This document shows, piece after piece, positions 61,496-62,374 of a DNA stretch of 64,000 nt. Within the stretch, counting starts at the first letter, position 1. Each line of letters begins with the position of its first letter. The DNA lies in contig JANQPV010000065.1 of the NCBI GenBank assembly GCA_028285305.1, forward strand, positions 62,001 through 126,000, read 5' to 3'. Position numbers and translations under genes: made by a program. The notes beneath the pieces were generated by a model, which did no database searches, was not told the origin of the DNA, and was given only the letters and a program-made list of their open reading frames with translations. Source of the DNA: Alphaproteobacteria bacterium (GTDB lineage: Bacteria > Pseudomonadota > Alphaproteobacteria > SMXP01).

Positions 61496-62374
61496 TTATC
61501 GCAGGGCCACCGCGTCCAGTGACGTTCGTCCCGCGCCGAACAGCAGCAAGAGCACCAATGCGCCTATGATGGGGCCAAACGTGGGAAGAAGCGAGATATA
61601 ATCCTGCACAACAATCGATGCAGCGATAAACAAACCCACCGCAATTGAAAGCATGACGATCGCGGCCAACCTCGTTACAAATCCCAACAACAACAGAGCG
61701 GCGCTCAGTACCATGAGAATAATCAGCCCGTGGTAAGCCCAAGTTGGATATTCAAGCAAGCCCTTGGTGGCATCGGGTGACAGAAAGGCCAGGTCAGTAT
61801 CGGCCAACAGGTCGAATACCGAACGGAACAATGGGCTCTCGGGCATCAAAGCATAGAGGGCAAAGAGTCCGGCCAAGGCGAGCCGCAATACCAATGCTTG
61901 TTCCGTCCACGCGCTCGTTTCTCGCGTTCGTCTCGCGGGTGCCCGCTTAGGCGGTGCCAAACGCACACCTTCCCGTTCCGGCTCGGCTTGAAGATAAAAC
62001 TCAATAGAATTGATCATTTGGTCAAATCCAGAGTGCTTGGACTGTCCCTTCCAACCCTTTAAGTTAAAGGGCCGCACGCGCGTGTAGGGCTCAGGCACTC
62101 TGGCGCCATCCAATCGCACGGTGACAAGAGAGTTAATCTCCATGCCGTACTTGGTAAAGCGCCCCACGTCCGGGTCATCGACCGAGTGGCGCGACCAAAG
62201 CGTCAACACGACCTTGGCCTCCTCGATCTGCTGGCGATTGAGCGATTGTGAGGCGTGGGACGTGGTGATCTTGCGATCGAACCACACCGTCCAACCGCGG
62301 TCACGCAAAGCCGTCGCAAGCAAGCGCGCTCGTCTCGTATCCTTCTTTGCGTAAGCGACGAATATGTCTGCCAT
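61496..62374 (-). CDS. TIR domain fused to DoxX-like membrane region
   Basis: A 292-residue protein. Residues 1-100 are a bacterial TIR domain (TIR_2 type): MADIFVAYAKKDTRRARLLATALRDRGWTVWFDRKI, then EEAKVVLTLWSRHSVDD and LVTVRLDGARVPEPYTRVRPFNLKGW. A linker leads to about four membrane helices (LVLRLALAGLFALYALMP, WAYHGLIILMVLSAALLLLGF, LAAIVMLSIAVGLFIAASIVV, LPTFGPIIGALVLLLLFGAG), resembling DoxX. In a hand alignment, the catalytic Glu of NAD-consuming TIRs falls on F73, so NADase activity may be absent. Start is ATG 62374 with GAGGGG upstream. Its last bases face the AI-2E gene 13 bases away. Function unknown; membrane signalling is one guess. Confidence 0.8.
   Translation of the reverse strand: MADIFVAYAKKDTRRARLLATALRDRGWTVWFDRKITTSHASQSLNRQQIEEAKVVLTLWSRHSVDDPDVGRFTKYGMEINSLVTVRLDGARVPEPYTRVRPFNLKGWKGQSKHSGFDQMINSIEFYLQAEPEREGVRLAPPKRAPARRTRETSAWTEQALVLRLALAGLFALYALMPESPLFRSVFDLLADTDLAFLSPDATKGLLEYPTWAYHGLIILMVLSAALLLLGFVTRLAAIVMLSIAVGLFIAASIVVQDYISLLPTFGPIIGALVLLLLFGAGRTSLDAVALR

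Follow-up and report, generated by a model that had tools for sequence, protein, structure and literature searches.

Bacterial TIR domains have been studied mostly as NAD-consuming enzymes, and a TIR domain is normally an NAD-cutting or immune-signalling module. What, then, does such a domain do when its catalytic glutamate is missing and a membrane domain follows it? The question is raised by one gene in the 64,000-nucleotide stretch of alphaproteobacterial DNA analysed here (the window). The preliminary description of this gene had proposed a non-enzymatic, perhaps adaptor-like TIR fused to four DoxX-like helices.

The gene and its neighborhood

The gene occupies positions 61496..62374 of the minus strand, with the ATG at 62374 and the stop codon at 61496-61498, and encodes a TIR-DoxX-like fusion protein of 292 aa (TIR-DoxX). 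This reading of the ORF, including coordinates and strand, agreed with the preliminary one. The frame is uninterrupted across the TIR and DoxX-like halves. Further support for the gene came from Pfam, from a ribosome-binding-like GAGGGG located 5 bases 5' of the ATG and from the host-like codon make-up (GC3 of 0.65, inside the range of the neighbors). No sigma-70-type promoter was found for the gene, and no RNA families were found in the window. One terminator-like site lies within the gene; shuffled sequences give more such sites.

TIR-DoxX is encoded by the third and last of three minus-strand genes. The first (63962-63378) encodes a PduO-type cobalamin adenosyltransferase (ATR) and the second (63353-62487) a TauD-type dioxygenase, which is followed by a gap of 112 bases. 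On the other side, the 3' ends of the TIR-DoxX gene and the convergent AI-2E-family permease gene are 13 bases apart. The preliminary names of all three neighbors were borne out by Pfam and NCBIfam. Ten TauD-like dioxygenase matches were detected in the same genome. Upstream of the window, the contig carries housekeeping-looking genes (argininosuccinate lyase, diaminopimelate decarboxylase, and FtsE/FtsX-like; names from sequence inspection only).

We considered a defense island and rejected it. The neighbors are metabolic and transport genes, none of them for defense, as the preliminary description had stated, and the PADLOC matches were weak, partial, and restricted to residues 2-35. For Thoeris and other TIR defense systems, TIR-DoxX had neither a full defense model match nor a defense neighbor. 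Since the surrounding genes are ordinary or housekeeping-like and GC3 is in their range, the gene has an ordinary chromosomal location outside any defense island.

TIR-DoxX has the TIR fold but not the catalytic Glu of TIR NADases

Residues 4-120 (62015..62365, minus strand) matched TIR_2 (PF13676) with 50.6 bits and an E value of 3.3e-13, above the cut-off of 28 bits. The AlphaFold2 model, for which the input alignment contained 48 relatives, had a pLDDT of ~95 across most of this domain. Its best PDB matches in a Foldseek search were all TIR domains (SARM1, TIR-STING, MyD88, TcpB, and AbTir). The matches span enzymes (SARM1, AbTir) and adaptors (MyD88, MAL, TLRs), and the fold alone therefore does not tell an enzyme from an adaptor. 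Alignment with 134 relatives showed that the fold residues D3, F5, Y8, D12, L23, G27, V30, W31, D33, W60, V70, L83, P94, and W108 are retained. In many of the relatives found, the TIR is fused to transmembrane or other domains. Searching the PDB by phmmer with the TIR-DoxX protein alone yielded nothing significant, and alignment to solved TIR structures needed the family profile rather than the single sequence.

In the family profile, position 73 is the Glu that ends the WxxxE motif in AbTir, BtTir, PdTIR, and TcpB, and position 69 corresponds to Trp204 of AbTir. In TIR-DoxX, Phe73 (codon 62156..62158, minus strand) replaces the catalytic Glu (AbTir E208); 132/134 relatives have Glu here and the other 2/134 have Ala. 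The Trp is replaced by Asp69 (codon 62168..62170, minus strand), at a position with Trp in 114/134 and Phe in 10/134 relatives. Residues W60, S64, V70, and L83, which flank the active site, are kept and in register. Thus, the hand count of the preliminary description, which had assigned Phe73 and Asp69 to these two places, was right.

The NADase of AbTir is inhibited by mutating any of S140, R151, D167, V193, W204, and E208 (PMC11374754, table II). According to the profile alignment, the corresponding residues of TIR-DoxX are A7, R17, D33, T58, D69, and F73, meaning that four of the six are changed and two (R17 and D33) are kept. D33 is the Asp after strand B. At the place of the strand A Ser, TIR-DoxX has Ala7 (codon 62354..62356, minus strand), and 126/134 relatives have Ser. 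The S140A exchange inhibits the AbTir NADase, and the equivalent change has the same effect in TcpC (PMC11374754). The Trp is dispensable for the TcpC NADase, and Ser and Glu are needed in AbTir and TcpC alike (PMC11374754). Loss of the Trp alone would therefore not be decisive. The BB loop is also altered: a Gly present in 110/134 relatives is lost (G39S), S42 stands where 131/134 relatives have F, W, or Y, and Ile46 is changed (I46N).

E79 was evaluated as a substitute active-site glutamate and rejected. It is six residues C-terminal to position 73 and closes the helix that contains both (residues 68-79 in the AlphaFold2 model), and its column in the alignment is an unconserved mix of E, D, Q, and R. 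Both sequence and model place it outside the active-site position. The changes to the Glu, to further residues needed in AbTir, and to the BB loop make it very unlikely that the domain hydrolyzes NAD by the usual mechanism. With the catalytic Glu absent, TIR-DoxX is most likely not an NADase and, judged from its sequence, its TIR domain is very likely non-enzymatic.

The C-terminal half is DoxX-like

The TIR domain is followed by a basic linker at ~residues 138-160 (..PPKRAPARRTRETSAW..; 61895..61963, minus strand; pLDDT <50 at 138-152) and by a DoxX/DoxD-like membrane region at ~residues 160-290 (61505..61897, minus strand). The Pfam scores of this region were low. DoxD was matched with E 0.001 and 19.5 bits in the protein scan and with 22.9 bits in the genome scan (cut-off 22.7), and DoxX with E 0.023 and 15.8 bits in the protein scan (cut-off 23.6). 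Yet, against a profile built from 20 DoxX proteins of related genomes, the C-terminal half scored 22.7 bits, above all 1000 segment-wise shuffles (<=15.6 bits) and above the other membrane proteins of the window (<=5.5 bits). It contains approximately four hydrophobic segments with starts near residues 160, 216, 238, and 260, and the DoxX-like motifs G-x-x-TR (here G-F-x-TR) and, C-terminally, GxGRxSLDA (here FGAGR-x-SLDA). These results uphold the proposal that the TIR domain is followed by four DoxX-like helices. The best single match of this half was a DoxX-like protein in another genome (G268; 39% over 83 residues). The His found after the third helix in the nearest DoxX relatives is Gln in TIR-DoxX; more distant DoxX proteins also do not have this His. 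AlphaFold2 modeled the C-terminal half as one 80-residue helix, which is not trustworthy because the alignment held no relatives of that half.

The fusion is found in one genome

The preliminary description had called for a search for the same fusion elsewhere. Using full-length and C-terminal queries, we found no protein with both halves in overlapping samples of 96 relatives, 385 genomes from the class, and 398 from the phylum. The fusion was also not found in genomes of named species (in one scan, among the best 80 matches listed), nor in plasmids, phages, or viral contigs. Four genomes of the same family, which are incomplete, were without it, and no paper combining "TIR domain" and "DoxX" was found in the literature. 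TIR-DoxX has been found in a single genome and so far makes a lead rather than a class.

TIR-DoxX departs from the family at 12 of the 28 positions that are conserved in 80% of relatives (rank 7 of 135 sequences; median 1) and is, therefore, a divergent TIR overall. This divergence and the occurrence in a single genome would fit a lineage-specific relic, in which an old TIR-membrane fusion lost its activity and is drifting, open but functionless. No orthologue that could have revealed selection was found, and the gene may be such a decaying orphan. However, the 292 codons are open, the start site is good, the codon make-up is host-like, most fold residues are kept in a confidently modeled TIR domain, and sequences of similar overall divergence (L053, L055, and L049) retain the catalytic Glu. 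We consider a relic unlikely, but it is the strongest rival to a scaffold at the membrane.

Other TIR proteins and Glu-less relatives

The same genome encodes five other TIR_2 proteins (L064-L067 and L069, on contigs C74, C35, C50, C24, and C54). All five have the catalytic Glu, and two carry transmembrane helices. TIR enzymes require self-assembly (PMC8635717), and TIR-DoxX might act as a dominant-negative regulator, a dead TIR that joins assemblies of the active TIRs of the cell and keeps them off or localizes them to the membrane. However, the five genes are located on different contigs, none adjoining the TIR-DoxX gene, and the BB loop of TIR-DoxX is altered; we regard such a regulator as improbable. 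Among the domain architectures of this genome are a TIR with two helices (L008/L067) and a TIR with several helices and a formylglycine-enzyme-like tail (L006). Adjacent TIR-membrane gene pairs (L027, L028) were detected in G229 and G126, two genomes of the same genus; in each pair, one BB loop is normal and one is shortened.

Besides TIR-DoxX, the only Glu-less TIRs among the 134 relatives were L018 and L052, both with Ala (frames around 1501-1869, on the minus strand for L018 and the plus strand for L052). They represent one protein of 330 aa in two species of one genus, which belongs to the same class as TIR-DoxX. This protein is membrane-anchored by one helix near residue 250, and its gene lies beside genes for a YchF-like GTPase and a thioesterase-like protein. 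When its TIR was used as a query against 337 genomes, TIR-DoxX was the top match apart from the protein itself. A tree joined TIR-DoxX with L018/L052 (support 87/91). Given the great length of the L052 branch and the program's warning of false joins, the grouping may be long-branch attraction, and we take it as only a hint of a family of membrane pseudo-TIRs.

A possible scaffold at the membrane

Our computation established a TIR fold, the loss of the Glu and other NADase residues, and a DoxX-like membrane part. From this we infer, as the best reading, a role as a scaffold or regulator at the membrane. With its catalytic residues lost and a DoxX-type anchor fused to it, TIR-DoxX, if it has a function, probably acts by keeping proteins together at the membrane and not as an enzyme. 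Specifically, it could be a catalytically dead TIR on the cytoplasmic face of the inner membrane, held by a four-helix anchor and offering a scaffold or docking platform without enzymatic activity, a proposal to which we give an even chance. The DoxX half would place the protein in the inner membrane with the TIR domain facing the cytoplasm, and the TIR fold would bind another protein, possibly another TIR. Redox or stress proteins may be close by, as has been suggested for the DoxX of mycobacteria.

In favor of a scaffold are the changed NADase and BB-loop residues, the kept fold residues, the confident TIR model, the intact frame with its host-like codon make-up and ordinary neighborhood, the Glu-less, membrane-anchored L018/L052 protein, and the Glu retained in all five other TIR_2 proteins of the genome. 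Against it are the lack of an orthologue in the genomes searched, the weak DoxX sequence match with its unreliable model, and the altered BB loop, a loop on which many TIR assemblies rely; in addition, the neighboring genes indicate no partner. Of the preliminary proposal, the non-enzymatic part gained support from the missing Glu and the further losses of AbTir-needed residues; the adaptor-like part was an inference for which no partner, conserved neighbor, or orthologue was found. The idea that TIR-DoxX is still an enzyme, using another residue (e.g., E79 or D69) or another substrate, is very improbable, since, although D33 and R17 are kept and the Glu is dispensable for some TIR effects (TirD of Dictyostelium, PMC13142454), the residues equivalent to S140, V193, W204, and E208 have all changed and E79 is misplaced in a variable column.

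More generally, bacteria could use dead membrane TIRs either as genuine adaptors or to restrain active TIR enzymes, with TIR-DoxX as an example, but this is doubtful. If true, a membrane TIR with the fold and without the catalytic site would be a bacterial parallel to animal scaffold TIRs, and TIR-DoxX would be a simple test case of whether bacterial TIRs can signal by assembly alone.

Comparison with known systems

In AbTir, the Acinetobacter baumannii NAD+ hydrolase (8G83/7UXU), the TIR fold and the D167 and R151 equivalents are common to TIR-DoxX. In contrast, S140, V193, W204, and E208 are A, T, D, and F in TIR-DoxX, and the solved AbTir domain is without a membrane part. The animal adaptor TIRs MyD88 and MAL are non-enzymatic, as TIR-DoxX very likely is, and serve assembly. 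They matched the TIR domain of TIR-DoxX in fold (Foldseek) but belong to a different sequence family and are fused to other domains.

TIR-DoxX shares the helix layout and the G-x-x-TR and GxGRxSLDA motifs with DoxX/DoxD proteins, such as the TQO small subunit DoxD and the mycobacterial DoxX of the SodA-SseA complex. It differs from them by a Pfam score below or at the cut-off, by the Gln instead of His after the third helix, and by the TIR fusion. In mycobacteria, DoxX has been proposed to join SodA and SseA in a membrane oxidoreductase complex, and a DoxX-domain protein of these bacteria reportedly affects resistance to stress and to phages (PMC10943396). By analogy, this may be a lead on the role of the anchor and is not evidence for it.

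Bacterial TIR_2 proteins with transmembrane tails (L044 and L056 of G399; L003, L006, and L008) resemble TIR-DoxX in having an N-terminal TIR of the same family (~25-34% identity) followed by at least one membrane segment. However, they keep the Glu and none was found with a DoxX-like tail. The L018/L052 protein has a single-helix anchor and another C-terminus, but it has in common with TIR-DoxX the absence of the catalytic Glu, a membrane anchor, an EPY..F stretch, and the mutual match.
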